From: a virus
IMG/VR virus record: IMGVR_UViG_3300031343_000319
Span: 1-23,334 of that record
Length of the DNA stretch: 23,334 nt
Reading direction: 5' to 3' (one strand)
Below the pieces are notes generated by a model. That model had not been told where the DNA came from and did no database searches. It saw only the letters and a list, made by a program, of their open reading frames with translations. This document shows positions 1,015 to 19,862 of this stretch, in pieces (positions within the stretch are counted from its first letter, which is position 1; each line of letters starts with the position of its first letter). The position numbers were made by a program, and so were the translations under genes.

Positions 1015-2294
1015 GTTTAAAACACAAGAATATCAATCTCCCAGATGCCATCAATTGTAGTATTTCAAAAGAATACACTCAAATTCCAAACAAATTGTTA
1101 AAAAGCCCTGAAATCTCAGGAAAAGGAAAAGCATTGCTCTGTCTTCTATTAAGCAACAAAGAAGGATGGAAATCTTGTTTATCCGGTATTTCCAAAATGA
1201 TGAAAGAAGGATCAGATGCAATCAACTCAGGCATTAATGAATTGGAAGAATATGGATACTTAATACGGGTTCGTTATCGCGACAAGAAAACCAAAGTATG
1301 GAAAGGTTCTTTTTGGGCATACTCGGATGAACCTTATTCATTCGACATCCAAAAAAATATTCATTGGATTGATTCCAATGAATTAGAAATTTATCTGGAT
1401 GGAAGAACGAAACATAATTTAGGTATGGAAAACCCAGATATGGAAAACCCGGATATGGAGACCCTGGATATGGAAAACCAGGGGCTAATAATATATAATA
1501 ATAATAATATTAATACTAATAAAATTAATTCTAATATTAAATTACATTCCCCGGAACAAAAAAGTTCCGGAGTAAGTGATTCTCCCAAATCAAATAAATC
1601 TACTATTTTGGAAAGGAATAAACAATACCTTCCAATATGTAGTAAATTAAGTAGAATCATTCAATCCAAGAAAAATATAAAACATACCCCGGCTCAGTTT
1701 AGGAATTGGTCAGATGAAATACGCAAATTAGTTGAAGGGAACAAAATATCCATTAAGCGAATTAATATAGCTCTGGACTGGTATAAGAATAGGATTGGAG
1801 AAAAATATATTCCAGTTGTCGAGTCAGGAGCATCGTTAAGAGAAAAATTCACCAGGCTGGAAAATGCAATGAAACGAGATGATGATTATAAAGTTGGTAC
1901 TCCTTTATTCACTCCAGACGAAATCCTAAGTTCCCATTTTGATTCTGATTGGTTATTGAGAGCAATGAAAAACAATTATGAGCAAGTCAATCAATTAGTA
2001 GTAAAAGATGATAAATCAGAGCTTGCCAGTAATTTTTGTAAATTATATGATTGGATTCGAGAAAACCAATCCCTGGAAGTCCTTACCAAAGTAAACGATA
2101 ATGTCAACCCTTCCGGATTAATCAAACAATACATTTTCTGGTTAAAATCGCAAGGATGGTTAGATGGAATATCCTCCCAAACATTTAGCCCTCGTAATAA
2201 TTTATTCAAGAAAATGTTTTTAGGAGCAAAAAACAAAGAACTAAACACAAATGTATTAACCGGAGAATTTGTACCTTCTTATGAGACGAGGTAA
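1011..2294 (+). CDS. Replication initiator-like protein with winged-helix N terminus
   Basis: The N terminus (about residues 18-105: YTQIPNKLL, ISGKGKALLCLLL, then GINELEEYGYLIR followed by a basic wing) has the layout of the helix-turn-helix/winged-helix domain of phage replisome organisers. The middle (residues 139-158) is four copies of a five-residue unit of the type MENPD, followed by an Asn-rich linker encoded by a very AT-rich tract. The C-terminal half is helical, with no motif I can name. The gene lies directly before the methyltransferase and DnaB-like helicase, as expected for a protein that loads helicase at an origin. It starts at ATG 1011 behind the attenuator-like leader. DNA binding is inferred from the domain pattern, and the initiator role from position and the lambda-O-like gene structure. 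Confidence 0.6.
   Translation: MSLKHKNINLPDAINCSISKEYTQIPNKLLKSPEISGKGKALLCLLLSNKEGWKSCLSGISKMMKEGSDAINSGINELEEYGYLIRVRYRDKKTKVWKGSFWAYSDEPYSFDIQKNIHWIDSNELEIYLDGRTKHNLGMENPDMENPDMETLDMENQGLIIYNNNNINTNKINSNIKLHSPEQKSSGVSDSPKSNKSTILERNKQYLPICSKLSRIIQSKKNIKHTPAQFRNWSDEIRKLVEGNKISIKRINIALDWYKNRIGEKYIPVVESGASLREKFTRLENAMKRDDDYKVGTPLFTPDEILSSHFDSDWLLRAMKNNYEQVNQLVVKDDKSELASNFCKLYDWIRENQSLEVLTKVNDNVNPSGLIKQYIFWLKSQGWLDGISSQTFSPRNNLFKKMFLGAKNKELNTNVLTGEFVPSYETR
1425..1570 (+). other. Candidate replication origin inside the initiator gene
   Basis: Four tandem 15-bp units related to ATGGAAAACCCGGAT lie at 1425-1439, 1440-1454, 1455-1469 and 1470-1484; the third and fourth are diverged. An AT tract follows directly (1486-1546), with only three C residues in 61 nt. 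Then comes a hairpin, CCGGAAC (1551-1557) and GTTCCGG (1564-1570), with an A6 loop. Iterons, an AT-rich unwinding region and a hairpin inside the initiator gene match the layout of the lambda origin inside gene O. Origin function is inferred. Confidence 0.5.
2276..2290 (+). repeat. Direct repeat flanking the methyltransferase gene (left copy)
   Basis: TTCTTATGAGACGAG here recurs as TTCTTATGAGACAAG at 3091-3105, with 14 of 15 positions identical. The left copy contains the methyltransferase start codon and the right copy contains the helicase start codon. The repeat brackets the methyltransferase exactly, as expected if that gene was added at the junction between initiator and helicase genes. 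Confidence 0.5.
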
Positions 2295-3099
2295 TAAAAT
2301 AGATATACGATGTTGTGATAATCTTGAATTGATGGCAGAAATTGAAGATAACACAGTTGATTTAATTTACTGTGATGTACTTTATGGAACAGGCAGAAAA
2401 TTTACCGATTACCAAGATTTAAAGCCTAAACGAGAAATAATAGAAGAACATTATATACCAAGAATTAAAGAAATGCACCGTATTTTAAAAGATACAGGAA
2501 GTATTTATTTACAGATGGACACTAAAATAAACCATTGGTTGAGGTGTATTTTAGATGATGTTTTTGGTTATGGTAATTTTTTGAATGAGATAATTTGGTG
2601 GTATTATAACAGCCAGTCAAATGTTAAAAACAACTACAAAAGTAAGCATGACAATATATTGTACTATAAAAAAAGCAATAAATACACTTTTAATTTGAAT
2701 GATATAGGATTAAATTATAATGAAAAACAAATTAAACGCTTTAGCAAAGAAGATGAAAACGGCAAATATTACAACAACGTTACTCAACAAGGTAAAAAGG
2801 TTAAGGTTTATTTTGATGATAAGAAAGTGATAAATTTGCAGAATGTTTGGGATATACCTATTTCACAAAAAACTGAATATTCAACACAAAAACCAAAAGC
2901 ACTAATTGAACGAATAATAAAAGCAAGTAGCAACGAAGGGGATTTAGTAGCAGACTTTTACGCTGGTAGTTTTACAACTGCTGAAGTTTGTAAAGATTTA
3001 AATCGTAGTTTTATAGGTTGTGATATTTCAGAAAAAGCCGTAGAGATTGGATTGAAAAGAGTAAATAAAATTAAAATAAAACCATTCTTTTTCTTATGA
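2281..3099 (+). CDS. Beta-class DNA methyltransferase-like protein with altered motif IV
   Basis: Motif order is that of beta-class N6-adenine/N4-cytosine methyltransferases: motif IV early (residues 28-38), a variable target-recognition region, then STQKPKALIERII (201-213) and motif I VADFYAGSFTTAE (223-235). The catalytic DPPY tetrad is replaced by D32-V-L-Y35, although the following GTG is normal, and the usual GSGTT of motif I reads GSFTT. The enzyme may be inactive, or may belong to a phage subfamily with a different catalytic loop. ATG 2281 is preferred over the TTG at 2269; it overlaps the initiator gene by 14 nt. Base composition looks more AT-rich than the neighbours, and a 15-bp repeat flanks the gene, suggesting a later insertion. 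Probable roles are self-protection from host restriction or timing of origin use. Confidence 0.72.
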   Translation: MRRGNKIDIRCCDNLELMAEIEDNTVDLIYCDVLYGTGRKFTDYQDLKPKREIIEEHYIPRIKEMHRILKDTGSIYLQMDTKINHWLRCILDDVFGYGNFLNEIIWWYYNSQSNVKNNYKSKHDNILYYKKSNKYTFNLNDIGLNYNEKQIKRFSKEDENGKYYNNVTQQGKKVKVYFDDKKVINLQNVWDIPISQKTEYSTQKPKALIERIIKASSNEGDLVADFYAGSFTTAEVCKDLNRSFIGCDISEKAVEIGLKRVNKIKIKPFFFL

Positions 3100-4682
3100 G
3101 ACAAGATGAAGCAATTGAACGCCGGGTAATCACCGGCTTAATAGTATCCACTGATTACATCAAACAAGTGCGTTTAGGATGGAAAAGTAAATTACTTCAG
3201 TCCAAAACAGCCCGTATGTTAGCTACCTGGTGTATTGAATATTTTGATAAGTATGAGAAAGCACCTGGTAAGGATATTGAGAATATCTACATTCAAAAAC
3301 TTCATAGCAATAACCTAACGGATGAGCAAGGACAGGATATAGAAGAAATTCTGGAAGATTTGTCCGATGAGTATGAACGGGCTGATAAGTTCAATGTTGA
3401 TTATCTGTTGGATCAAACCAATACGTATTTCGATGAGCAGAATTTAAAAGATTTTACCACCGAAATCCAATCACATATTGATAGAGGGAATCTTTCAGAA
3501 GCAAAACGTCTTGCTGGGGAATATAAACCAGTCTCTGGTAATACTAAGAGAATAGGTATTGATTTTGGGGATGAGGAGACTTTGATGAATACTATTGAAA
3601 AAGCATTCACTTACAGTCAGCAGCCTGTAGTAAGATATCCTCGTCAGTTAGGTCAATTCCTGAATGACTTACTTGTAAGAGATAGTTTGGTAGGGATAAT
3701 GGGAAGTGAGAAACGAGGAAAAACATTTTGGCTACTGGAATTTGCAATCCGGGCGGCTCGACAACGATCAAATGTTGCATTCTTTGAAGCCGGAGATATG
3801 TCGGAAGGACAGATAACGAGACGGATATCCATCTACTTGGCGAAACAATCTGATAAGGAAAAGTATAGTGGAAAGATGTTCCAACCTGTCCGGGATTGCA
3901 TTTGGAACCAAATGGATCTTTGTGATAATCCGCAGAGAGAATCTGATGAAGGTATATTTCCAATCCGGAATGATGAAGAAAAGAAAAATATATTGAATCA
4001 TATCCGTCATGAGATTACCATTGAAGAATTGCAGGAGAAATATAAGGAGTTTCCAAATTATCAACCATGTTATAACTGTCCAAAATATTGGAAGGGTAAA
4101 CTGGGGGCTGTCTGGATAAAACAAATAGATGCCGGGCCTCCACTGGAATATCCAAAAGCTCAAAGTGTGGCGAAAGAGTTTTTCATCAATAAGAATCGAC
4201 GGTTTAAACTATCTTGCCACCCCAGTTTCACTCTAACGATAAAAGAGATGAAAACCATTCTGGATATCTGGGAGAAGCAAGATGGGTTTATTCCGGATAT
4301 GATTGTGGTGGATTATCCGGATATTCTTGCTCCAGAGATTCAAGGAACATTGCGGGATCAGGAGAATGATAAGTGGGCAAAACTTCGAGGGTTGTCAGAA
4401 GAGAAACATTGTTTGGTTATTGTCGGCACTCAGGCTGATGCCGCGAGTTATAAAAAGAATTGGTTGCATTTAGATAATTTTGCAGAAGATAAACGCAAAT
4501 ACGGACATGTAGTGGCAATGATTGGATTGAACCAGGATCCCGATGGAAGAGAAAAAAAGTTGAAAGAAATGCGGTTAAATAAGTTAGTGGTTAGGGAAGA
4601 GGATTTCATCAGTGAGGAAGGGATAGTTGTTTTACAGAACCTTCATAGAGGTCAACCATATTTATCAAGTTTTTTTACTTAA
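3096..4682 (+). CDS. DnaB-like replicative helicase (SF4)
   Basis: This ring helicase would unwind the fork ahead of the phage polymerase. Visible motifs are Walker A GSEKRGKT (residues 203-210), a Glu-containing strand after it (AFFEAGDMS, 228-236), Walker B DMIVVDYPD (401-409), and the motif H3 Gln in VIVGTQAD (442-448). A C-terminal segment, VVAMIGLNQDPDGREKK, resembles the H4 loop before the arginine finger. Compared with DnaB, about 150 residues are inserted between the H1a strand and Walker B. They carry four cysteines, C268, C276, C325 and C328 (the last two as CYNC), a possible zinc site. The N-terminal 150 residues are helical but not clearly a DnaB N-terminal domain. ATG 3096 overlaps the methyltransferase stop by 4 nt (ATGA). 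Confidence 0.8.
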   Translation: MRQDEAIERRVITGLIVSTDYIKQVRLGWKSKLLQSKTARMLATWCIEYFDKYEKAPGKDIENIYIQKLHSNNLTDEQGQDIEEILEDLSDEYERADKFNVDYLLDQTNTYFDEQNLKDFTTEIQSHIDRGNLSEAKRLAGEYKPVSGNTKRIGIDFGDEETLMNTIEKAFTYSQQPVVRYPRQLGQFLNDLLVRDSLVGIMGSEKRGKTFWLLEFAIRAARQRSNVAFFEAGDMSEGQITRRISIYLAKQSDKEKYSGKMFQPVRDCIWNQMDLCDNPQRESDEGIFPIRNDEEKKNILNHIRHEITIEELQEKYKEFPNYQPCYNCPKYWKGKLGAVWIKQIDAGPPLEYPKAQSVAKEFFINKNRRFKLSCHPSFTLTIKEMKTILDIWEKQDGFIPDMIVVDYPDILAPEIQGTLRDQENDKWAKLRGLSEEKHCLVIVGTQADAASYKKNWLHLDNFAEDKRKYGHVVAMIGLNQDPDGREKKLKEMRLNKLVVREEDFISEEGIVVLQNLHRGQPYLSSFFT

Positions 4683-4691
4683 AATTGAAAT

Positions 4692-4709
4692 AAAATTTGT
4701 ATTATATAT
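4692..4709 (+). promoter_or_regulatory. Putative phage promoter motif P2 before queD
   Basis: This exactly repeats 17 nt of P1 (AAAATTTGTATTATATA, 4692-4708) in the 39-nt gap between helicase and queD. If TATTAT (4700-4705) is the -10 element, the 5' leader would be only about 10 nt. It would give the 7-deazaguanine cluster its own transcript. Confidence 0.55.
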
Positions 4710-4721
4710 TAAAAGAAAGAT

Positions 4722-5087
4722 ATGTTTACAATCACAAAAGAATTTGAATTTAGCGCTTCTCATCAATTAAATGAATTGGAAGAAGGTCATCCATGTAGTC
4801 GTGTTCACGGACATAACTACAAAGTAAAAGTGGAGTTAAAAAGTAATGAACTTAATCATAAAGGAATGGTTCAGGATTACAGAGAATTAAAGCCGATTAA
4901 AGATTGGATTAATTCTAATTTAGATCATCAACATTTGAATGATATTATTCCAGGTCCAGGCAATCCCACAGCGGAAAATATTGCCAAGTGGATATATTAC
5001 AGATGGAATTCTCGCAAATGTGGTCCTCTACTTTCAGCCGTGGAAGTTTCGGAAACCGATAAGACCAATGCCCGTTATGAGCCTTAG
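4722..5087 (+). CDS. queD: 6-carboxy-5,6,7,8-tetrahydropterin synthase QueD
   Basis: QueD converts 7,8-dihydroneopterin triphosphate to 6-carboxytetrahydropterin, the second step towards 7-deazaguanines. The 121 residues match the family length. The zinc ligands are visible as H14 (FSASHQL) and H29 and H31 (RVHGHNY), the catalytic Cys as C25, the second active-site cluster as D68-H69 with H71 (LDHQHLND), and the pterin-anchoring Glu as E85 (PTAENIA) or E111 (EVSET). No key residue is missing. It lies 39 nt after the helicase behind promoter motif P2 and 66 nt before queE. In phages, queD with folE, queE and a DpdA gene is the hallmark of DNA base modification rather than tRNA queuosine synthesis. 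Confidence 0.92.
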   Translation: MFTITKEFEFSASHQLNELEEGHPCSRVHGHNYKVKVELKSNELNHKGMVQDYRELKPIKDWINSNLDHQHLNDIIPGPGNPTAENIAKWIYYRWNSRKCGPLLSAVEVSETDKTNARYEP

Positions 5088-5153
5088 TATGGTCGATACC
5101 CTTTAATCTACGAGATATTATTCAAGTAAGAAATAGCGTTAAAACTAAGGAAA

Positions 5154-5918
5154 ATGAGTCAACAAATAATTAAAGCATTTCAAAAGCGGGGAAATTTTCC
5201 TTCCATTACAGCTGATAGTCGGTATCTGGATATATCCGAATTCTATTTTGATACTATCCAGGGAGAAGGTATTAACACAGGAGTACCTGCGGCATTCCTC
5301 CGATTACAAAGGTGTCATCTGGGATGTGTGTATTGTGACACAACCGAAGTTTGGCGATTTGGCAATCCTTATTCATTTGATGAATTATTTCAGATGATGG
5401 AAGAATCCGGATTGGTAGATAGATTAAGGGAGGATCAACATCTTATCATAACCGGAGGTAGTCCTTTACTACAAGAATACCGTATTTTTCTTTTCTTACA
5501 TGAATTTAAAGAAAGGTATTCCTTTCCCACTATTACAGAAATTGAGAATGAATGTGTACTGAATCCTTCTTTGCTACTGAATTACATATCTGTTTGGAAT
5601 AATTCACCAAAGTTATCAAGTAGTGGAGTGCATCGTAGAAAGAGATACAGGCCAGAAATTATATCTTATATGTCTTCATTAAACAATTCCTGGTTTAAAT
5701 TTGTAATTGAATGTGAAAAAGATTGGGAAGAGATTCAAATGGATTTCCTGAATTCAGGATTGATTAGAAAAAATCAAATAATACTTATGCCACTTGGTAG
5801 TACGAGAAAAGAGTTATTCAAACATCAGGAAGAGACTGTAGATTTAGCAATCAAACATAATGTAAGATACTGTTCCCGGGAGCATATTGTTCTTTGGGAT
5901 AAAAATGTTGGAGTTTAA
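5154..5918 (+). CDS. queE: 7-carboxy-7-deazaguanine synthase QueE (radical SAM)
   Basis: QueE converts 6-carboxytetrahydropterin to 7-carboxy-7-deazaguanine (CDG) using a [4Fe-4S] cluster and S-adenosylmethionine. The cluster-binding CxxxCxxC is C54, C58 and C61 (RCHLGCVYCDT). The family N-terminal motif FDTIQGEG is at residues 32-39, the SPK motif at 151-153, and a C-terminal LWDKNVGV resembles the usual QueE ending. The SAM-binding TGGEP motif reads TGGSP (100-104), so the normal Glu is Ser. At 254 residues it is slightly longer than small bacterial QueE, with extra sequence around residues 155-180. The ATG start follows AAGGA. The enzyme is probably active, but the Ser substitution is worth testing. 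Confidence 0.88.
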   Translation: MSQQIIKAFQKRGNFPSITADSRYLDISEFYFDTIQGEGINTGVPAAFLRLQRCHLGCVYCDTTEVWRFGNPYSFDELFQMMEESGLVDRLREDQHLIITGGSPLLQEYRIFLFLHEFKERYSFPTITEIENECVLNPSLLLNYISVWNNSPKLSSSGVHRRKRYRPEIISYMSSLNNSWFKFVIECEKDWEEIQMDFLNSGLIRKNQIILMPLGSTRKELFKHQEETVDLAIKHNVRYCSREHIVLWDKNVGV

Positions 5919-5939
5919 TTAATTAATAAAAAAAGTAAA

Positions 5940-6758
5940 ATGAAAAAAAGGTTAAGTACAATGAGTAATGAAGTACGTTTAAACGTACTTCGAGAAACCG
6001 CGCTTGAATTACAAGAGATATGTAAATTCAATCCTCCGTTTCGCTCAAAAGGGAAAACTGAAGAGCAAGTAGTTGATTGGTTGAAGGAAGCTGCTCCGTT
6101 GCTTGAGCTAAATGATGTGGCTGAGATTTCGGCGGATACGAAAGATATACTGGAGCAACTTGGATTTTGGAAGTTTGAAGACAGTAACGAGATTGAAGAT
6201 GCAGAAGAAGTTGAGGAAGAAGAAGAAACCGTAGCGGATAATCTTGATATCATAGCTGAGATTGAGACCGCTCCCTCGGTGAGGGAATTGAAGGATGTTG
6301 CCCGGACGTACGCTGAATTCAAATCCATCCGTGGGAATTTGAGTTCCTATAAAAAAGCAGAGGATTTGAGGGAGTGCATGATAGGGATTCTTAATCCTGG
6401 TGCTGAAAAACCGGAAAAAGAAGTAAAGTTGAAAGTGAAGTCGAAAGCAAAATCAGAACCCTCTCCAAAAGAAAAGAAACCGGAGGAAGAGAAACTTGCT
6501 GAGAAGAAGAAACCGGAGCCAAAAACTGAAAAGAAAAAAGAATCAAGTCCTTCCAAAAGAACAAAAAAAGCTGTAGTAGAAGAAATGATCAATTCTAAAA
6601 CTGGAGCAACAATCGAGGAAATTGCTCAAAAAATCACAGACGAAAAGATTGATCTGGATTATTCTAAAAATTATGTGGTTGCCAAACTATGGCTCAGTAA
6701 AATGAGATTTGATGTAAAAAAAGCAGCTATTGCAAAAAATCCAAAATTCAAAAAATAA
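5940..6758 (+). CDS. Charged low-complexity protein with possible C-terminal HTH
   Basis: I do not recognise this protein. Residues 1-80 are a helical domain. An acidic run follows (about 84-97, EDAEEVEEEEE), then a second helical part (about 105-150), a long linker of K, E and P residues (about 155-205), and a C-terminal segment (about 207-272). The latter reads MINSKTGATIEEIAQKI with later helices and a basic end, and could be a winged-helix or other DNA-binding fold. It sits inside the 7-deazaguanine cluster, 21 nt after queE, and its stop overlaps the methyltransferase start by 1 nt (TAATG). A second ATG at 5961 could also serve as start. A perfect 22-bp palindrome lies within its first codons. 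Confidence 0.6.
   Translation: MKKRLSTMSNEVRLNVLRETALELQEICKFNPPFRSKGKTEEQVVDWLKEAAPLLELNDVAEISADTKDILEQLGFWKFEDSNEIEDAEEVEEEEETVADNLDIIAEIETAPSVRELKDVARTYAEFKSIRGNLSSYKKAEDLRECMIGILNPGAEKPEKEVKLKVKSKAKSEPSPKEKKPEEEKLAEKKKPEPKTEKKKESSPSKRTKKAVVEEMINSKTGATIEEIAQKITDEKIDLDYSKNYVVAKLWLSKMRFDVKKAAIAKNPKFKK
5970..5991. promoter_or_regulatory. Perfect 22-bp palindrome in a coding region
   Basis: The half-site GAAGTACGTTT is followed immediately by its exact reverse complement, with no spacer, at codons 11-18 of the preceding entry. A gapless 22-bp palindrome is not expected by chance in 23 kb. Such symmetry usually marks a site for a dimeric DNA-binding protein. It lies 52 nt downstream of queE, so it could be an internal operator. 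Confidence 0.5.
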
Positions 6759-7612
6759 TGAGTTCTGAGCGTAAAATAGTTCATAAAATAGAAGAAGGAG
6801 AAAATCCAAAAGATGTGTATTGTACTACATATCAGATGCGAAATTTTTATGCTCAATTCGCAGATGGATTTTTTTCTTCTTTGGATGTAATGAATTACAT
6901 CCAGCATCATGCAGCTGTTTTAAAAATGAAAAAAAATTGGAGGGTGTTAGATGTTTGTTGTGGTCGGGGATTACTTCTTCCTCTTATTCGTTATTATAGA
7001 AGGAACATATCAGAATATGTTGGCATTGATATATCTGAGTCAAATATCGGAGAACAAAAAAGAAGATCTGGAATAAAAAAAATAAAAGACATAAAAGAAT
7101 ATTACCCGTTTAAGATATCTCATGTAATAGGTAGTGTGGAAAATATGAATACATACTTCCATGATAATTCTTTTGATTTTATTGTGTATACATCTTCAAT
7201 AGAACATATGCAACGAGATATAGGGTATAAATCCTTACAGCATTGTTTTTCTATATTAAAACCCGGACAGGAAATGTTTTTATCTTGTCCAAATACCAAT
7301 GATAAGCAAGATCCATACGATACTCAATATGCCGCTCACATATACGAATGGGGCATTAATGAATTAAAAGATGCTGTAATTGATATTGGTTTTGAAATTT
7401 CTTCGGAATATGGATTAGTTGGAAAAGTGAAAGATTTTGAAAAGTGGATAAATAATCAATCAGAAAATAAGAAACAGCAATATTTTTCATTAAAGGAATA
7501 TTTGCCTTCCACTTGGTTGATGGCCTTTGCTCCTATTTTATATCCGGAAGCCGCTGCGGAATTACTGTTGATATTAAAAAAACCAAAAGAGAAGAAAAAC
7601 TCATTTTTTTAA
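6758..7612 (+). CDS. Class I SAM-dependent methyltransferase
   Basis: A Rossmann-fold methyltransferase is shown by motif I VLDVCCGRG (residues 63-71), the acidic residue after strand 2 in YVGIDISE (D91), the motif IV-like FDFIVYTSSIEH, and the post-I pattern ILKPGQEMFLSCPN typical of UbiG/Methyltransf_11 proteins. There is no DPPY or PCQ motif, so it is not a usual adenine or cytosine DNA methyltransferase. It lies between queE and folE with 1-nt and 9-nt junctions, so it is probably part of the modification pathway. It might act on a 7-deazaguanine base, nucleoside or DNA residue. That substrate is inferred from position alone; an unrelated small-molecule substrate is possible. Confidence 0.75.
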   Translation: MSSERKIVHKIEEGENPKDVYCTTYQMRNFYAQFADGFFSSLDVMNYIQHHAAVLKMKKNWRVLDVCCGRGLLLPLIRYYRRNISEYVGIDISESNIGEQKRRSGIKKIKDIKEYYPFKISHVIGSVENMNTYFHDNSFDFIVYTSSIEHMQRDIGYKSLQHCFSILKPGQEMFLSCPNTNDKQDPYDTQYAAHIYEWGINELKDAVIDIGFEISSEYGLVGKVKDFEKWINNQSENKKQQYFSLKEYLPSTWLMAFAPILYPEAAAELLLILKKPKEKKNSFF

Positions 7613-7621
7613 AAGTATATT

Positions 7622-8203
7622 ATGTCAAAAGAAAAAGCTGAACAATTGATTTATTCTCAACTTCAATATATTGGAGAAGATCCAAATCGTCCTGGACTGA
7701 TAGGAACTCCTGATCGAGTCGTTAGAATGTGGAAAGAGATATTTAGGGGGTATGATCCAAAGAAGAAACCAGGTATAACCACATTCAGAAACGACTCTGA
7801 TGGATTAGTATATGATCAAATGATTATAGATTCCGGAAAATTTTACTCCTATTGTGAACATCACATGGTGCCGTTCTTTGGTAAGTATTGGTTTGGATAT
7901 ATTCCTTCCTTTGACGGGGCTATTGTAGGATTATCCAAAGTCGCAAGGTTGGTGGATTATCATTCTGCCCGTCTTCAAATACAAGAACGATTAGTATATG
8001 ACATTGTGGAAGACATTTGGAATACATTGAGTAAAGATAATCCTCCGCCGCTGGGTATGGGATTAGTTATGGAAGCTGAACATCTTTGCAAGACTATGAG
8101 AGGAGTCAAGAAAAAAGGAAAAATGACTACTATTAAACTGAAAGGAGCTTTCTTGGATAATGCTAATGTAAAATCAGAATTCCTGCAAAGATGTTCGGTA
8201 TAA
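7622..8203 (+). CDS. folE: GTP cyclohydrolase I FolE
   Basis: FolE opens GTP and makes 7,8-dihydroneopterin triphosphate, the entry step for both folate and 7-deazaguanine synthesis. Family motifs are intact: CEHHMVPF (residues 78-85, zinc ligands C78 and H81), GLSKVARLVD (103-112), the QIQERL helix (119-124), and AEHLCKTMRGV (152-162), which supplies the third zinc ligand C156 and a conserved His. Length, 193 residues, is normal. The gene is coupled to the methyltransferase upstream and the dpdA group downstream, so its likely job here is to feed QueD rather than folate synthesis. Confidence 0.95.
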   Translation: MSKEKAEQLIYSQLQYIGEDPNRPGLIGTPDRVVRMWKEIFRGYDPKKKPGITTFRNDSDGLVYDQMIIDSGKFYSYCEHHMVPFFGKYWFGYIPSFDGAIVGLSKVARLVDYHSARLQIQERLVYDIVEDIWNTLSKDNPPPLGMGLVMEAEHLCKTMRGVKKKGKMTTIKLKGAFLDNANVKSEFLQRCSV

Positions 8204-8207
8204 GGCT

Positions 8208-8372
8208 ATGAAAATTTATTTAGCAGGAACCCCAGGCACTGAACAGAGAGAGAGAGAGTGGCAAAGAATAGCTTCAAAAAGACTACTTTCTTTTTGGGAT
8301 ATATTAAACAATCAATTCTCAGTCCCTTATGCGTTTGATTTAATAAAGAAAAAGAAATGCAAATCCACTTAG
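8208..8372 (+). CDS. 54-aa protein resembling the DpdA N terminus
   Basis: This small gene starts 4 nt after folE and overlaps dpdA by 16 nt. Its N terminus, MKIYLAGTPG followed by QREREWQRIASKRLLSFW, parallels that of the next gene (MQIHLAGVPG, KRERELNPFWEKRLWSYYW). Both have an identical (AG)7 tract at matching places, 8245-8258 and 8409-8422, encoding the RERE segment. It ends YAFDLIKKKKCKST, with no catalytic part. It may be a remnant of a tandem duplication of dpdA, or a real small partner protein. The open frame and tight spacing favour expression. Confidence 0.6.
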   Translation: MKIYLAGTPGTEQREREWQRIASKRLLSFWDILNNQFSVPYAFDLIKKKKCKST

Positions 8373-9415
8373 CTGGAGTTCCTGGAGGAGGATCTTCCGG
8401 AGATTGTAAGAGAGAGAGAGAGTTAAATCCTTTTTGGGAAAAAAGATTATGGTCATATTATTGGATAATTAAAGATAAAGGAAAAATGCCTAAAGAAAAC
8501 AAAATTGATCTTTTCATGGACTCGGGAGCATTCTCTGCCTGGACGCAAGGAAAAGACATAAACATCAATGAATACATCCAGTTCATTAAAGAAAACCAGG
8601 ATGTGATTAATATCTACGCTAATCTGGATGTGATTGGTATAGGTGGGAAACAACCTAATAAATTAACAGCGGAAAAAACATTGGAAAATCAAAAGATAAT
8701 GGAAAAAGCTGGATTATCTCCAGTACCAGTGTTTCACTTTGGAGAGCCTTTTCCGTATTTAAAAGATTATTGTGATAAATATGAATACATCGCTTTGGGA
8801 GTAGCTGGAAATATTGGGGCTAAATTAATTCCTTGGTTAGATAAATGTTTTTCCGAATTTATTTGTGATGAAAAAGGGTATCCAAAAGCAAAAATACATG
8901 GATTTGCCGTAACTTCTCTAAAATTGATGCTTCGGTATCCATGGTATTCTGTTGATTCTACTTCCTGGGTAATAACCGGAAGAATGGGATCCATATTCGT
9001 TCCCTGTGGAACGAAAGGGGAATGGATATACAATAAAACTCCTCGAAAAATTAGTGTATCCCTTCGTAATCCGAATATAAAAGATGAAGGACAACATATT
9101 AATACTTTTTCTCCAATGGAGCAAGAAGTAATTCTTTCATACATTCACAAGAAAGGATACTGTTTGGGTAAGTCTAAATTTAAAGAGGTTGATCAATCTT
9201 ATGAACTACAAAAAAACGAGCGGTGGTTTGAAAAGAAACCAGTTGATAAATTAGAGAAAAGAGAAGTGGAAGTGATTATAGAGGATGGTATATCCAATCG
9301 GTATCAACTCAGGGATGAGATGAATATCATTTATTTTCTTGATCTTGAAAAATCAATGCCGGAATGGCCGTGGCCTTTTACTCAACATCGAAAAATGAAA
9401 AAATTTGAGTTATGA
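8357..9415 (+). CDS. dpdA: DpdA-type DNA 7-deazaguanine transglycosylase
   Basis: DpdA proteins are relatives of tRNA-guanine transglycosylase that exchange guanine for a 7-deazaguanine base in DNA. Features supporting this are MDSGAFSAW (D55), the paired Asp region YANLDVIG (D91), HGFAVTS (181-187), and SVDSTSW, whose D200 is the candidate nucleophile. GVAGN (148-152) resembles the glycine loop that holds the base. The CxCxxC zinc site of bacterial tRNA enzymes is absent, as expected for phage DpdA. The start at 8357 follows from the MQIHLAG motif shared with the flanking genes. Immediate neighbours folE, queE and queD supply the substrate. Which 7-deazaguanine it inserts cannot be read from the sequence. 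Confidence 0.8.
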   Translation: MQIHLAGVPGGGSSGDCKRERELNPFWEKRLWSYYWIIKDKGKMPKENKIDLFMDSGAFSAWTQGKDININEYIQFIKENQDVINIYANLDVIGIGGKQPNKLTAEKTLENQKIMEKAGLSPVPVFHFGEPFPYLKDYCDKYEYIALGVAGNIGAKLIPWLDKCFSEFICDEKGYPKAKIHGFAVTSLKLMLRYPWYSVDSTSWVITGRMGSIFVPCGTKGEWIYNKTPRKISVSLRNPNIKDEGQHINTFSPMEQEVILSYIHKKGYCLGKSKFKEVDQSYELQKNERWFEKKPVDKLEKREVEVIIEDGISNRYQLRDEMNIIYFLDLEKSMPEWPWPFTQHRKMKKFEL

Positions 9416-9591
9416 AAATTTACTTCGCTACCTGGCTTTTTGATAAGACGTTGGATTGGAATTTGACAAAGAAACGAGGAAATACCCGACTTATTAGTTA
9501 TTATTTTCTCCGAGAACAGGGAATAGATTCTCAACAATTGAAAACATATTGTAAATTAGGACGAATATACAGAAATAAAACAAAGAAATGA
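9412..9591 (+). CDS. 59-aa protein resembling the DpdA N terminus
   Basis: The start overlaps the dpdA stop by 4 nt (ATGA), and the stop overlaps the clamp gene in the same way. It begins MKIYFATWLF and continues with KKRGNTRLISYYFLREQG, matching the early dpdA block (RLWSYYWIIKDKG) in order and spacing. The rest (SQQLKTYCKLGRIYRNKTKK) is basic. With the gene at 8208 it makes three neighbouring proteins that share an MKIY(L/F)A start and an RL-S-(Y/F) helix. Catalytic aspartates are absent. Both tight overlaps argue that it is translated. Confidence 0.6.
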   Translation: MKIYFATWLFDKTLDWNLTKKRGNTRLISYYFLREQGIDSQQLKTYCKLGRIYRNKTKK

Positions 9592-10607
9592 AAATTAACA
9601 AAGATCAATTACAAGAAGCCCTGACAATAGTACAGCCAGGATTGGCAAGCAAAGACATCATCGAACAAGCTAATTCATTTGCTTTCCTTGATGATAAAGT
9701 AGTAACTTATAATGACCGGATCAGCTTATCTCATCCAATCGAAGGATTGGATATCAGAGGAGCAATCTACGCTGAGGAACTATACAAGTTACTACAAAAA
9801 ATTAAAGAAGGGGAAATCAATATCTCTATTGATAAAAATGAGGTAAATCTCAAGTTTGGAAAAGGATCCGCCCGTCTGACTCTTCAAGAGGAGATCAAAA
9901 TACCGCTTATACCTATAAAAGGGGAATGGGAAAAATTACCTGATAATTTCAATCGTTTTCTAAAGTTTGCTATGAGTGCCTGTTCAAAAGACATGTCTCA
10001 GCCGGAATTAACTTGTGTGAATGTTAAAACGAATGGAATTATTCAGGCTACGGATAGTTATAAAATTTCTCATTGTGATTTAAAAAAACCAATGCCGGTT
10101 GAAGATTTTTTACTTCCGGCATCCATGACAAAAGATGTGATAAAAATTAATCCAACTCATGTCAATAAAAAAGGAGATGATAAATGGATTCATTTTAAAA
10201 ATGAAAAAGGAACTGTAATTTCTTGTCGCTTGATGGAGTCTGAAAAAGATTATCCAACCTTACAAAAACATCTGAATATTGAAGGAGAACAGATTCAGCT
10301 CCCTAAAACTACCGCTGAAATACTTGGTAAAGCATGGGTGTTTGCTAAACGGGATAATCTATTAGAAGAAACAATTAGAATTAGTATTGAAAGCAAAAGA
10401 ATGGTGGTTTTCAGTCAATCGGAAACAGGGAGTTTCTCTGAAAAAACATTAATTCATTACGAAGGTAATCCAGTTGAATTCCTGATTGCTCCTCACTTAC
10501 TGATTGATATTCTGAAAGAAACCAATCAATGTATACTGAATGAAAATTTTATTAAATTTGAAGGAGAAGGGTGGCAGTATGCCAGCGCTCTACAAAGTGA
10601 AGAATAA
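9588..10607 (+). CDS. DNA polymerase sliding clamp, DnaN-like
   Basis: The 339 residues fit the three-domain beta-clamp plan, though sequence is diverged. Clamp-like stretches are the first-domain helix LQEALTIVQPGLASKD, a middle region with QATDSYKISHCDL, LPASMTKDVIKI (about 177-188), the YPTL turn before the third domain (about 224-227), and FLIAPHLLIDILK (about 295-307), which parallels the FNxxYLLD helix of DnaN. The C terminus ends with GEGWQYASAL rather than the normal LPM tail. It would hold the phage polymerase on DNA and be loaded by the AAA+ protein at 14277. The start overlaps the preceding small gene by 4 nt. Assignment rests on pattern and context. Confidence 0.72.
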   Translation: MKINKDQLQEALTIVQPGLASKDIIEQANSFAFLDDKVVTYNDRISLSHPIEGLDIRGAIYAEELYKLLQKIKEGEINISIDKNEVNLKFGKGSARLTLQEEIKIPLIPIKGEWEKLPDNFNRFLKFAMSACSKDMSQPELTCVNVKTNGIIQATDSYKISHCDLKKPMPVEDFLLPASMTKDVIKINPTHVNKKGDDKWIHFKNEKGTVISCRLMESEKDYPTLQKHLNIEGEQIQLPKTTAEILGKAWVFAKRDNLLEETIRISIESKRMVVFSQSETGSFSEKTLIHYEGNPVEFLIAPHLLIDILKETNQCILNENFIKFEGEGWQYASALQSEE

Positions 10608-10939
10608 TGAAAAGAATGAAAAGATTTTTTGAAACTGAAAAAGAAGCCACATTCAACGAAAAGTTGAAGTGGGCGTTTATCTGGTTGATGGGAGCTTGTC
10701 GTGTGGTTGAAGGGGATAAAGAAGGTTATTATATGTGGAATAAAGGCCTTCGGGTGAGAAAATACTTTAGGAAAGCCATATTCATTTTACCTGAAAACAT
10801 GCCTACTTCTCCTTGTGATGATCTATCTATTTCAATTGAGGATGACATAGCTATCATTGAACTGTCAAATGCAAAGTACACGTTTCATTTAAGCATGATT
10901 CTGTATGTTTGGAAAAAGTTAAAACCGGTTTTGAAATGA
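10607..10939 (+). CDS. Hypothetical protein, 110 aa
   Basis: I do not recognise this protein. Its start shares 1 nt with the clamp stop (TAATG) and its stop overlaps the next gene by ATGA, so it is embedded in the replisome operon. It has a basic start (MKRMKRFFE), a short hydrophobic helix (LKWAFIWLMGAC, about residues 20-31) and a mixed C-terminal part ending VWKKLKPVLK. The hydrophobic part is too short and mixed for a clear membrane span. Its place between clamp and polymerase suggests a replication accessory role. Confidence 0.55.
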   Translation: MKRMKRFFETEKEATFNEKLKWAFIWLMGACRVVEGDKEGYYMWNKGLRVRKYFRKAIFILPENMPTSPCDDLSISIEDDIAIIELSNAKYTFHLSMILYVWKKLKPVLK

Positions 10940-12156
10940 AAGGTTTTTTTGAGGTAAAGCAAAAACAGAAAACCAAAGCCATGAGTAGTAAAAATACACT
11001 GAGTTGTGTTTCTTGTGGACTGTATAAAGATGTGGTTTCTACTATGATTCAACCTTACGGAAATTTCCGCAAACGAATTCTAAATATAGGAGAAGCACCT
11101 GGTGTAATTGAAGATGAAAGAGGTAAACCATGGCAAGGAAAGATGGGTCGTCTGTTGAAAAAAACATACCGGGAATTGGGAATAGATTTGTTTGAAGATT
11201 GTTTGAATGTGAACGCCGTGAATTGTAGACCTCCAGGGAACAAAACTCCGACTAAACAACAGATCGCTTGTTGTAGAAAAGTAATGGTTGAGAAAATTAT
11301 AAAGGAGTACGCCCCGGACATCATCATTCTACTTGGTGGGTCAGCTGTTAACAGTTTTCTTGATCTCCGGTGGAAAAAGAATCTTGGTGGAATAATGAGA
11401 TGGAGAGGTTGGGCTATACCTGATCGGGATCTCAAAGCATGGGTTTGTCCTACATTCCATCCATCATACGTGGAACGAATGCAGATGGATGGAATTACTA
11501 ATATCTGGAAGGAAGATTTATGGCAGGCGTTTTCTAAGATAGGTGAAAAGCCTCCTATTTTTAAACCTCCGATGATTGATATAATTGATGACCTTCGTCA
11601 TCTCGATGGTATTAATACCGATATAGTGGCGTTTGATTATGAAACCACCGGGATAAAACCACACGCAAGAAGCCATCGGATTGTTTCCTGTGCAGTAGCA
11701 GATAGGGAAGATCACGCTTACGCTTTCCTGATGCCTTCATCAAAAGAGAAACGCAAACCACTTGTCAATCTTTTTCAAAGTAACAAGATTATGAAAGTTG
11801 CTCATCACATGAAGTTTGAAGATCATTGGACTAATAAACGCCTGTATACAGAAATAAATAACTGGGGTTTTGATACTATGCTGTCTTCTCATATTCTTGA
11901 CAATAGAGAAGGAGTGAGTAGTTTGAAATTTCAATCCTATGTGAATTTTGGGATTGTTGGATATGATGATGAAATAACCTCTTACCTCCAATCTAACGAC
12001 AAAAGTGCAAATGCTATGAATAAGATATATGAATTACTTAAGAAACCAGGAGGAAAGGAGAAACTACTTACATACAACGGATATGATGCTGTATTGACCT
12101 TGCGTCTTGCTACCCAGCATATTCATCAAATTGAACATGATTTTTTACCATTTTAA
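10936..12156 (+). CDS. Family 4-type uracil-DNA glycosylase fused to 3'-5' exonuclease (PolA proofreading part)
   Basis: Residues 20-200 are a uracil-DNA glycosylase of the iron-sulfur type. The cluster cysteines are C24, C27, C97 and C112 or C113; motif 1 is GEAPG (52-56) and the second active-site motif is HPSYV (175-179). Residues 215-406 are a DnaQ/PolA-type exonuclease: FDYETTG (D234, E236), HHMKFED (D296) and YNGYD (Y380, D384) are Exo I, II and III. The polymerase domain is a separate downstream gene, so the phage DNA polymerase I is split. The glycosylase might stop copying at uracil or remove uracil as DNA is proofread. ATG 10936 (ATGA overlap) is preferred over TTG 10909. Confidence 0.85.
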   Translation: MKGFFEVKQKQKTKAMSSKNTLSCVSCGLYKDVVSTMIQPYGNFRKRILNIGEAPGVIEDERGKPWQGKMGRLLKKTYRELGIDLFEDCLNVNAVNCRPPGNKTPTKQQIACCRKVMVEKIIKEYAPDIIILLGGSAVNSFLDLRWKKNLGGIMRWRGWAIPDRDLKAWVCPTFHPSYVERMQMDGITNIWKEDLWQAFSKIGEKPPIFKPPMIDIIDDLRHLDGINTDIVAFDYETTGIKPHARSHRIVSCAVADREDHAYAFLMPSSKEKRKPLVNLFQSNKIMKVAHHMKFEDHWTNKRLYTEINNWGFDTMLSSHILDNREGVSSLKFQSYVNFGIVGYDDEITSYLQSNDKSANAMNKIYELLKKPGGKEKLLTYNGYDAVLTLRLATQHIHQIEHDFLPF

Positions 12157-12168
12157 AAAACTTATATT

Positions 12169-12630
12169 ATGACAAAGAAAAAAACAACAAAAAAGTTTCA
12201 AATGAACGAAGGACGTAATAATATGCCAAAATATCAGGCGCCTCCACCTCCACCAAAACCAAACCCAGACCCAAAACAATATCAAGAAAATGCGAAAAAA
12301 TCCAGGGAAGCAATCCTGCAGAATTTGGATCTTATTTACACTACTTGCGAAAAAACAGCAACAAGTTTTAACACGGATAAAATTTCTTTACGTTTCTTGC
12401 GAATAGTTATTAATAGTGCCAGACCAAAATTTGTAGATAATAAATCTGTTAACCAATTGATTGAAGCGTATCATCAAACTTTAAATGAATTATATCAGGC
12501 TTGTGAATCCCGTGCCAAAATGATTAATAAGAACAACTCCGATGTATCACTCCACCGTATAAAATTTTTTATAGACTTCATTAAAAAAGAATACAAATCA
12601 GTATTAAAAGATGTACATATTGGAAACTAA
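12169..12630 (+). CDS. Hypothetical proline-rich protein, 153 aa, between the two polymerase genes
   Basis: I do not recognise this protein. The N terminus is basic (MTKKKTTKKFQ) and is followed by a proline run (about residues 24-36, APPPPPKPNPDP). The rest (about 42-150) looks all-helical, with a C-terminal amphipathic helix FFIDFIKKEYKSVLK. It separates the exonuclease and polymerase genes: 12 nt after the first, and overlapping the second by 20 nt. A bridging or accessory role in the split polymerase is an inference from position. The proline run looks like a flexible tether. Confidence 0.55.
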   Translation: MTKKKTTKKFQMNEGRNNMPKYQAPPPPPKPNPDPKQYQENAKKSREAILQNLDLIYTTCEKTATSFNTDKISLRFLRIVINSARPKFVDNKSVNQLIEAYHQTLNELYQACESRAKMINKNNSDVSLHRIKFFIDFIKKEYKSVLKDVHIGN

Positions 12631-14005
12631 AGATGCTTATAAACTCTTTCATCAAGGGACTCTTGCTTTGGCTCGGGCGGAACGACAAGGTATCCGGGTG
12701 GATATTGATTATATTCGCCAGAAAAAACAAGAATTAGATCAAAGAATTGAGGAGGTAGAAGAAGAATTAAAACAGACAAAATTCTACAGGCAGTGGACAC
12801 ATTCAAGAGGAGAACAGGGACCTAATATTAATAGTAATCCTCAGCTGAAACAGTATCTATACAAAGTTAGAAAAGAAACCCCTCCAAAAGAAACTGCATC
12901 CGGAGCCGGGTCAACTGATGAAAAATCTTTGAAAGAATTAAACATTCCGGGATTGAATTATATACTGGAAATTCGGAAGTTGAAGAAATTGAAAAATACT
13001 TATCTGGATCAGTTTGAAAGGGAGGCGATAGATGGATATATACATCCATTTTTCAACTTACATACAGTACAAACTTATCGTTCCTCTTCAAACAACCCAA
13101 ACTTTCAAAATATACCTGTGCGGGATGAAGAAGCAAAACTAATTACCCGACGGGCTTTGTTTCCGCGTCCCGGACATCAATTATTAGAGATTGACTATAG
13201 TGGATTGGAGTTCAATATCAATGCTTGTTATTCAAAGGATCCGGTGATGTTGGAATATTGTAGGAATCCAAATTCCGACCCTCATGCTGATGTGGCAGAA
13301 CAAGTATTTCTCATTAAGTATGATCCTTCCATTACAGGACACAAAGTGTTAAGAAGTGCGGCAAAGAATGGGTTTACTTTTCCGGAATTATATGGAGATT
13401 ACTACAAAAATTGCGCTATTGGTTTAGCATGTAACTGGGGAGAATTGAAGCCTGCTGGTAGATGGAAGAAAAAGCAAGGAATTGAATTAGAGGATCTCTC
13501 CCTTTCTGATCATCTTATCAACAACGATATAAAGTCATTGTTTGAATACACGGATCACATTAAGAAAGTAGAAGGGAATTTCTTTGATCGGTTTGCCATT
13601 CACAGAAAATACATGGAGGAGACTTATAATGATTACCTTGAAAACGGAGTAGTTAAATTCTACACTGGGTTTTCATGTAAAGGAGTATTGACAAGAAACC
13701 AAGTATTAAATTGTAGAATTCAAGGGAGTGCTTTCCATATACTTTTGAAAAGTTTCATTAAGTTAGATGCTATAATGAGACAAGAGAATTGGGATACCCG
13801 GTTGATAGGGCAGATTCATGATTCAATTGTATTTGATGTTCATCCGGACGAACTGGAACAAGTAACAAAAACCGCACATGAAATAACCACGAAAGAAGTA
13901 CCAGCAGAATGGACTTGGATTATTGTTCCACTAAAAATAAATATGGAATTAAGTCCGGTTGATTGTAGCTGGGCAGATAAAAAAGATTATAATTTTTCTA
14001 AATAA
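12611..14005 (+). CDS. DNA polymerase I (family A), polymerase domain only
   Basis: The 464 residues hold only the polymerase part. Motif A is LLEIDYSGLEFNI, with metal-binding D195. Motif B is R248-SAAK252 followed by YG at 261-262, one residue longer than in E. coli PolA. Motif C is IGQIHDSIVFDV, where the usual HDE is HDS (403-405) and D404 is kept. A thumb-like segment, YRSSSNNPNFQNIPVR (156-171), precedes motif A. No exonuclease signature is present; proofreading is encoded by the gene at 10936. ATG 12611 lies within the end of the preceding gene (20-nt overlap), pointing to translational coupling. Confidence 0.9.
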   Translation: MYILETKDAYKLFHQGTLALARAERQGIRVDIDYIRQKKQELDQRIEEVEEELKQTKFYRQWTHSRGEQGPNINSNPQLKQYLYKVRKETPPKETASGAGSTDEKSLKELNIPGLNYILEIRKLKKLKNTYLDQFEREAIDGYIHPFFNLHTVQTYRSSSNNPNFQNIPVRDEEAKLITRRALFPRPGHQLLEIDYSGLEFNINACYSKDPVMLEYCRNPNSDPHADVAEQVFLIKYDPSITGHKVLRSAAKNGFTFPELYGDYYKNCAIGLACNWGELKPAGRWKKKQGIELEDLSLSDHLINNDIKSLFEYTDHIKKVEGNFFDRFAIHRKYMEETYNDYLENGVVKFYTGFSCKGVLTRNQVLNCRIQGSAFHILLKSFIKLDAIMRQENWDTRLIGQIHDSIVFDVHPDELEQVTKTAHEITTKEVPAEWTWIIVPLKINMELSPVDCSWADKKDYNFSK

Positions 14006-18546: not shown

Positions 18547-18674
18547 TTTATAAAACGGAGCGTAAAACCCATTGGTCTGGCTCAGCCAATGGGATGTTAG
18601 TGACTCCTATTACACTTACATTTTGTAAAGATAATATAATTTTGAGAATGTTTGTTTTTTGTTTAAAATAATTG

Positions 18675-18682
18675 TATATTTG
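18675..18682 (+). promoter_or_regulatory. Bacteroidota-type promoter of tnpB
   Basis: TATATTTG matches the Bacteroidota -7 element TAnnTTTG, with TTTG at 18651-18654 as the -33 element, 20 nt upstream. Transcription would start at about the tnpB ATG. This differs from the phage motif at P1-P3 and is the clearest host-range clue in the window. Confidence 0.5.
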
Positions 18683-18686
18683 CCAT

Positions 18687-19862
18687 ATGTTTAAAGCGAA
18701 TAAATACAGAATATATCCTACCAACTCACAAAAAGAGTTGATTGCTAAACATATTGGCTGTAGTAGATTCACATATAATTTTGCCCTTGAAACAAAAAAC
18801 TCTGTATATTTAGGTTCTAAACAAAACTTATCTTCTTTTGATTTAATAAAAAAACTACCTGAATTAAAGAAAGAGCACGAATGGTTAAAAGAAGTCAATA
18901 GCCAATCTTTGCAGCAGTCAATCCAAAATATGGATATTGCTTTTAAGAAGTTTTTTAAAGGTGCTGGTTTCCCTAAATTCAAATCAAAACATAAAGGCAG
19001 ACAATCTTTTTCAGTACCACAGAATGTAATAGTGGAAAACGACTTATTGATAATCCCCAAGTTTAAAGAAGGTCTTGATATTGTTTTGCACCGTCCAATT
19101 AAAGGAACAATAAAGAGTGCAACTATTAGTGTTACACCTACAGGAAAGTATTTTGCTTCAATATTAGTTGATACAAATGAGATTATTCCGCAAAAAGCAG
19201 CAATTAAAGAAAATACAACTATCGGAATTGATTTAGGTATCAAAGATTTTGCTATTACTTCTAATGAAGAGGTATTTGAAAACCAAAAAAACCTACGCAA
19301 AGCCCAAAGTAAATTAAAATATGTACAACGTAAATATTCAAAGAACAAAGGTAAGCGGACAAAACAACGTCTTGCCTTATTACATGAGAAAGTAGAAAAC
19401 AAACGCAAAGATTTTTTACATAAAACTTCAACTAAGTTAATTCGTGAGAACCAAACGATAGCTTTAGAAACGTTAAATGTAGCAGGAATGGTTAAAAACC
19501 ATTGTTTAGCACAAGCAATTTCAGATGTAAGCTGGTCAACTTTTGTAACTATGTTAGAATACAAAGCTGATTGGTATGGTAAAAACATCCTAAGAATAGG
19601 TCGTTTTGCCCCCTCATCGAAGTGCTGCAATATCTGCGGAACTATCAATAAAGAACTAACACTAAAAGACCGTGAATGGACTTGTCCTAAGTGTAATTCT
19701 GTTCTTGACCGTGATGTAAATGCTTCCATTAATATTAAATCATTTGCTTTAAAAAATAATTTGAGTAAGGAACTTACTCTTAAAAATCGGAACGAACTGC
19801 CTCGGTTACGAGGAGTGCTGACTTCCGAAGCCCATCCCACCGCCTTTGGCGTGGGTGGGTAG
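18687..19862 (+). CDS. tnpB: TnpB RNA-guided nuclease of IS605-type element
   Basis: TnpB is the RNA-guided DNA endonuclease ancestral to Cas12. Its RuvC catalytic residues are all present: D182 (GIDLGIKDFA), E261 (ALETLNVAGM) and D343 (DRDVNASINI). The zinc ribbon is C314 or C313, C317, C333 and C336 (CNIC, CPKC). The N terminus MFKANKYRIYPT and the GCSRFTYN helix are typical of the family. Length (391) is complete. ATG 18687 is chosen over TTG 18672, which lies inside the promoter. The 3' end of the coding sequence runs into the right-end hairpin, where the guide RNA of such elements is encoded. With no TnpA, it could only be moved in trans by another element. Confidence 0.9.
   Translation: MFKANKYRIYPTNSQKELIAKHIGCSRFTYNFALETKNSVYLGSKQNLSSFDLIKKLPELKKEHEWLKEVNSQSLQQSIQNMDIAFKKFFKGAGFPKFKSKHKGRQSFSVPQNVIVENDLLIIPKFKEGLDIVLHRPIKGTIKSATISVTPTGKYFASILVDTNEIIPQKAAIKENTTIGIDLGIKDFAITSNEEVFENQKNLRKAQSKLKYVQRKYSKNKGKRTKQRLALLHEKVENKRKDFLHKTSTKLIRENQTIALETLNVAGMVKNHCLAQAISDVSWSTFVTMLEYKADWYGKNILRIGRFAPSSKCCNICGTINKELTLKDREWTCPKCNSVLDRDVNASINIKSFALKNNLSKELTLKNRNELPRLRGVLTSEAHPTAFGVGG

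Follow-up and report, generated by a model that had tools for sequence, protein, structure and literature searches.

A six-gene cassette for 7-deazaguanine DNA modification

The window analysed here is the entire IMG/VR virus record IMGVR_UViG_3300031343_000319 (23,334 bases), probably a fragment, and carries on its plus strand, directly after the gene for a DnaB-like helicase (3096-4682), a cassette of six closely spaced genes (4722-9415) whose content is suggestive of a methylated DNA base not described before. Four of these were identified using Pfam, PHROGs and NCBIfam: QueD (6-carboxytetrahydropterin synthase, the second step to 7-carboxy-7-deazaguanine, CDG; 4722-5087; PF01242, E = 1.6e-34; TIGR03367, 99.3 bits against a cut-off of 89.25), QueE (CDG synthase, a radical S-adenosylmethionine (SAM) enzyme, here of a phage subfamily; 5154-5918; phrog_2076, E = 1.5e-44), FolE (GTP cyclohydrolase I, the first step; 7622-8203; PF01227, E = 4e-49) and a DpdA-type DNA guanine transglycosylase (8357-9415; E = 2.1e-58 to phrog_887, the PHROG of phage queuine tRNA-ribosyltransferases). 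All four reading frames are open, with catalytic motifs visible: HPCSRVHGH in QueD, CxxxCxxCDT in QueE, YCEHH and HLC in FolE and, in DpdA, DSGAF and VDSTSW, which resemble the catalytic Asp motifs of tRNA-guanine transglycosylase (TGT) and are conserved in close relatives. The space between QueE and FolE is taken up by two further genes, one for a charged protein whose C-terminal part weakly resembles DUF3489 (5940-6758; PF11994, E = 6.3e-5, under the cut-off) and one for a class I SAM-dependent methyltransferase (MTase; 6758-7612; PF13489, E = 1.8e-14), the ATG of the latter overlapping the stop codon of the former by one base. A sequence-only reading of this DNA had described a 7-deazaguanine DNA modification cluster without QueC, with a methyltransferase and a charged protein inside it, and both descriptions are borne out.

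The window QueE is 49% identical to that of Chryseobacterium phage MA9V-3, and both have GGSP, as do the relatives L020, L029 and L031, where most QueE proteins compared have GGEP. This substitution was considered as a marker of the MTase-bearing cassettes and dropped, as relative L013 combines GGEP with an MTase and MA9V-3 has GGSP with none. In relative L015 an intein-like insertion (2811-4415) lies inside QueE, right after the CxxxCxxC motif.

The methyltransferase occupies the position of QueC

A search for queC beyond the cluster, as the sequence-only reading had proposed, was extended to the whole record and found none: there is no PF06508 match anywhere in it, and no Gat-QueC or QueC domain. 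Taken alone, absence from a 23,334-base record is little proof, and it gains meaning through relatives, which we collected by DpdA similarity and for which gene order was then mapped. The sister phages L001 and L019 have the order QueD-QueE-charged protein-QueC-FolE-DpdA, and the window, together with L013, L015, L020, L029 and L031 (15-69 kb), has QueD-QueE-charged protein-MTase-FolE-DpdA, so that the MTase of the window stands exactly where L001 and L019 carry QueC. Homologues of the charged protein (L001, L013, L015, L020, L029, L031) keep the same position in QueC-bearing and MTase-bearing relatives. QueC was not found on the whole contigs of the window-type relatives, including those of 37, 65 and 69 kb, by the same search that gave strong scores for L001 and L019 and that matched E. 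coli and other controls.

A third group of relatives (L016-L018 and L021, 41-58 kb) also lacks QueC, and here a carbon-nitrogen hydrolase fills the slot. With QueC, the MTase or this hydrolase present there in different relatives, the gap that separates FolE from the charged protein appears to be a site at which one enzyme can be exchanged for another, each presumably deciding the fate of CDG. The slot hydrolase of L017 lies at 8246-9280 (PF00795, E = 4.1e-10). Elsewhere among the relatives, the QueC-less L022 (112 kb) encodes, between FolE and DpdA (7142-9843), a glycosyltransferase-like and a radical SAM protein, which are candidates for a hypermodification, and the cluster of L002 (6062-8081) includes a divergent QueC-like protein with a radical SAM protein nearby, an arrangement conserved in L003, L023, L024 and L026.

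QueF gave no match over the cut-off in 14 records and genomes tested, the window not among them, and the weaker matches that fell short of it probably come from FolE, a protein of related fold. A QueF-like protein directly follows DpdA and the MTase in L100 (10732-11124; PF14489, E = 1.8e-5, barely under the cut-off), the only QueF-like neighbour seen.

The methyltransferase family is linked to DpdA

The MTase is the distinctive element of the cassette, a role that went unseen in the sequence-only reading. A single-protein search with the window MTase returned no viral relatives and alignment searches were needed; the family was accordingly searched with an alignment of its own, in which DpdA was not used. 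Members were found in viral contigs and in bacterial and archaeal genome contigs (one of them archaeal), the latter being probably prophages or viruses. Grouping the 62 MTase loci at 85% identity gives 43 clusters, and in 34 of these a DpdA or TGT-like gene is present in the same locus, usually adjoining the MTase; in most of the others either contig ends cut the locus or the neighbours are divergent. Of the clusters, 26 contain FolE, QueD and QueE together; QueC is absent from 20 of these and present in six, and the absences were confirmed by whole-contig searches, including contigs of 45, 49, 64, 85 and 98.7 kb. A contiguous set of DpdA, MTase, QueD, QueE and FolE genes occurs in at least five lineages (L037, L067, L068, L069 and L088). 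The comparison loci without the MTase that were seen in the analysis comprise 11 with QueC and four without (Fisher p 0.003), the cluster counts and the test alike taking no account of kinship. The six clusters that hold both led us to drop the idea of the MTase as a strict substitute for QueC.

In four of those six clusters QueC is accompanied by a DUF6884-like gene (L032, 11867-12382; L038, 9457-9957; L044, 10813-11316; and L092), and such genes went undetected in the QueC-less MTase clusters, apart from a weak match in L075. A compact unit of ParB-like, DpdA and MTase genes is found in Faecalibacterium genomes (L041, 8500-10843, and L043). Among 50,697 deposited phage records no close relative of the MTase was found, the only matches being 22-28% identical, and the stretches around two of these contain no annotated queuosine genes.

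Fold and sequence neighbours of the methyltransferase

Fifteen aligned members of the family share an N-terminal TYQMRNF...MNYIQH block, the SAM motif D.CCGR, YTS..EHM and QY.AH.YEW, and an AlphaFold2 model built with these 15 sequences has a class I fold at a mean predicted local distance difference test score (pLDDT) of 84.7; it replaced a poor first model built from four sequences (pLDDT 65.8). Small-molecule MTases and guanine-N7 cap MTases are both found among the nearest solved structures, and cap MTases are prominent among the fold matches in a viral structure library. At sequence level, the mRNA cap guanine-N7 MTase model PF03291 scores 35.1 bits on the window protein, over the curated cut-off of 26.6, across residues 39-141 only, and matches 15 of the 15 members at E 0.01, mainly in the SAM-binding core; all 15 resemble the cap enzymes in the SAM-binding half. 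Other MTase models outscore PF03291, small-molecule MTases such as the UbiG-like ones are matched equally well, and DNA methylase models are marginal (one of 15 members, E 0.0069). By sequence and modelled structure, this set of neighbours would fit, short of proof, an enzyme in which a guanine-like base is held so that its position 7 faces SAM.

The base-binding loop of DpdA

The GGLAVGE loop of TGT touches the base close to its position-7 side chain. No solved structure was matched in a profile search with DpdA; a loose hidden Markov model alignment, of low probability and with the motifs in register, sets LGGMV of DpdA on IGGLAV of TGT. The DpdA proteins of QueC-bearing relatives and isolates keep a GG(M/L)V loop, with the exception of L092 (GAxV/GAMA). 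One loop Gly is absent (LG-VAG; ALG-VAGN in the window) from the window, L013, L020, L029, L031 and the distant L037. In Bipper, an isolate without QueC, GK replaces GG. The altered loop would accord with a change of base in these phages. Use of the loop as a strict marker of QueC absence was dropped, since L015, L017 and L022 keep GG, and monophyly of the MTase-type DpdAs to the exclusion of that of QueC-bearing L001 was weakly rejected (approximately unbiased test, p 0.044), a result too borderline to use. The nearest deposited DpdA proteins are about 35-40% identical to that of the window, and in L020 (9914-11893) an intein-like insertion lies in the active-site region of DpdA.

Comparison with known systems

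The window shares with DpdA-type 7-deazaguanine systems both the transglycosylase Asp motifs and the FolE, QueD and QueE genes, and the FolE, QueD, QueE and DpdA functions are those of phages CAjan and Rosebush (dPreQ0) and 9g (dG+); unlike the window, however, these three carry QueC or Gat-QueC. QueC, which the dPreQ0 subtype requires, is found neither in the window nor on the whole contigs of window-type relatives. As to the dG+ subtype of 9g, for which Gat-QueC, ArcS or a QueF-L amidotransferase would be expected, the window contains no Gat-QueC or QueC domain, and QueF matches stay below the cut-off in the relatives searched, ArcS not having been searched for separately. A QueC-less cluster has already been noted in Mycobacterium phage Bipper, for which CDG was suggested as a possible inserted base, in a study that counted 65 phages in the two groups with synthesis genes, queC being absent from two of the 65 (Hutinet et al. 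2019, PMC6884629). Bipper (KU728633) resembles the window in having FolE, QueD, QueE and DpdA without QueC, and its DpdA base loop is also altered; it differs in that its cluster has no MTase and its DpdA is only distantly related.

Tailoring of 7-deazaguanines in phages is also known. Cui and co-workers reportedly found, in 2023, both dCDG and methylated preQ1 in phage DNA, and are said to have described a dPreQ1 methyltransferase, DpdM, and a CDG decarboxylase, DpdL; DpdM was reportedly discovered in a phage isolate, with a fold not seen before in nucleic acid methylases. These are tailoring enzymes for phage 7-deazaguanines, one of which yields a methylated base, and in this they resemble the proposed role of the window MTase. 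The latter, in contrast to DpdM as described, has an ordinary class I fold, and it is without a close relative in deposited phages. QueC-less clusters and tailored phage 7-deazaguanines are thus known kinds, and what appears to be undescribed is the MTase family and possibly the base, a claim that depends on comparison with those 2023 reports of dCDG and methylated preQ1.

Proposed pathway and alternatives

In the pathway that we propose, FolE, QueD and QueE would convert GTP to CDG, at which point the phage would stop, and the MTase, as a dedicated partner of DpdA, would methylate the position-7 side chain of the CDG-type base. The likeliest methyl acceptor would be the carboxylate, giving a neutral methyl ester, and the methyl group may be added to the free base or after insertion, i.e. 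before or after the DpdA step. DpdA would swap guanine in phage DNA for the methylated CDG-type base, whose neutral, bulky group in the major groove may protect the DNA from restriction. That the QueC-less cassette works in this general way, with CDG made, a CDG-type base tailored by the MTase and inserted by DpdA, we propose tentatively, at a confidence slightly under even. The more specific and wider version, a widespread new pathway in which a class I carboxyl MTase forms the methyl ester of CDG and 7-methoxycarbonyl-7-deazaguanine is inserted by a DpdA whose base pocket is reshaped, is possible but somewhat unlikely.

Several observations weigh against the proposed use of CDG. None of the virus records is marked complete; QueC is present in six of the MTase clusters (L032, L038, L044, L086, L087 and L092); and the GG loop is retained in QueC-less L015, L017 and L022 and in the Faecalibacterium type. 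Furthermore, the Faecalibacterium/Gemmiger prophage-like loci L039, L041 and L043 contain ParB-like, DpdA and MTase genes only, and the Faecalibacterium host genomes have TGT with no match to QueD or QueF, the QueC model giving only weak partial matches in open reading frames of other lengths. Because these hosts are without QueD, QueF and a convincing QueC, the base must be imported there, and CDG is an unlikely substrate in these loci. A unifying view would be that the MTase acts on the position-7 side chain, that of CDG where the phage makes it and some other side chain elsewhere.

The sequence-only reading had offered CDG used directly, preQ0 made by host QueC and further decoration of CDG, for example by methylation; its interpretation is partly supported. 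The relatives favour methylation of CDG, because the MTase fills the QueC slot and its family is tied to DpdA, usually with FolE, QueD and QueE and without QueC. If the host instead supplies QueC, and perhaps QueF, the phage genes would serve to raise the flux of CDG, DpdA would insert preQ0 or preQ1, and the MTase would methylate that base elsewhere or the amine of preQ1. The MTase-bearing phages with a QueC of their own and the Faecalibacterium prophages, which must use a salvaged base (plausibly preQ1 or queuine), are in keeping with such a scheme, as is the methylated preQ1 reported from phage DNA. However, QueC is the only one of the synthesis genes missing from the 20 clusters that hold FolE, QueD and QueE, and no QueF exceeded the cut-off where tested, with only L100 near it; as the absence of QueC recurs in many lineages and the DpdA base loop of the window group differs from that of QueC-bearing relatives, we regard use of host QueC as less likely, and as unlikely in itself. 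QueC might instead simply lie in an unsequenced part of the phage, with the cluster making ordinary dPreQ0 and the MTase in a side role: the window is a fragment, but no QueC was found on the contigs, of up to 69 kb, of its closest relatives with the same gene order, and QueC lies inside the cluster in L001, L019 and the isolates examined. We consider this account quite improbable.

If the DNA instead contained plain dCDG, the possibility raised for Bipper, and the MTase acted elsewhere, for example on ordinary DNA, RNA or a protein, this would agree with the Bipper cluster, in which FolE, QueD, QueE and DpdA occur without QueC and without such an MTase, and with the dCDG reported from phage DNA. 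Against this, the MTase is tied to DpdA or TGT-like genes in unrelated phages, in bacterial genomes and in a single archaeal one, even where DpdA and the MTase form a unit with no synthesis genes, and DNA methylase models barely match the family; we consider this account distinctly unlikely. The resemblance to cap MTases raises the further idea that the MTase methylates N7 of guanine in DNA, weakening the glycosidic bond for exchange by DpdA. The PF03291 matches throughout the family, the cap MTases among its sequence and fold neighbours, and its linkage to DpdA rather than to the synthesis genes are all in line with this; yet the likeness is mostly in the SAM-binding core, other MTases score equally well or better, and TGT enzymes and the DpdA of 9g need no such step, so that we find the idea very improbable.

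Should the MTase indeed tailor the inserted base, it would represent a second way to finish the 7-deazaguanine pathway in phages, in which the charge of CDG is masked by methylation, whereas QueC turns CDG into a nitrile. This would add another base to the DNA modification repertoire, and would provide a function for an MTase family that is frequent in uncultured phages and has no close relative in deposited phage records.

Other features of the window

The plus-strand replication genes of the window comprise, besides the DnaB-like helicase, a fusion of uracil-DNA glycosylase (UDG) and exonuclease, a family A polymerase, a clamp-loader-like ATPase and RecA. In the region 10909-14005 the UDG domain and a 3'-5' exonuclease form one gene and the polymerase is a separate gene, with a gene of 153 amino acids between them. 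A TnpB-type IS605 OrfB (18672-19862; PF01385, with a Cas12f1-like TNB domain) stands alone among the replication genes, no TnpA being seen. The window also encodes an N6/N4 DNA methylase (2269-3099; PF01555, E = 3e-47), by which ordinary methylation of the phage DNA may occur as well.

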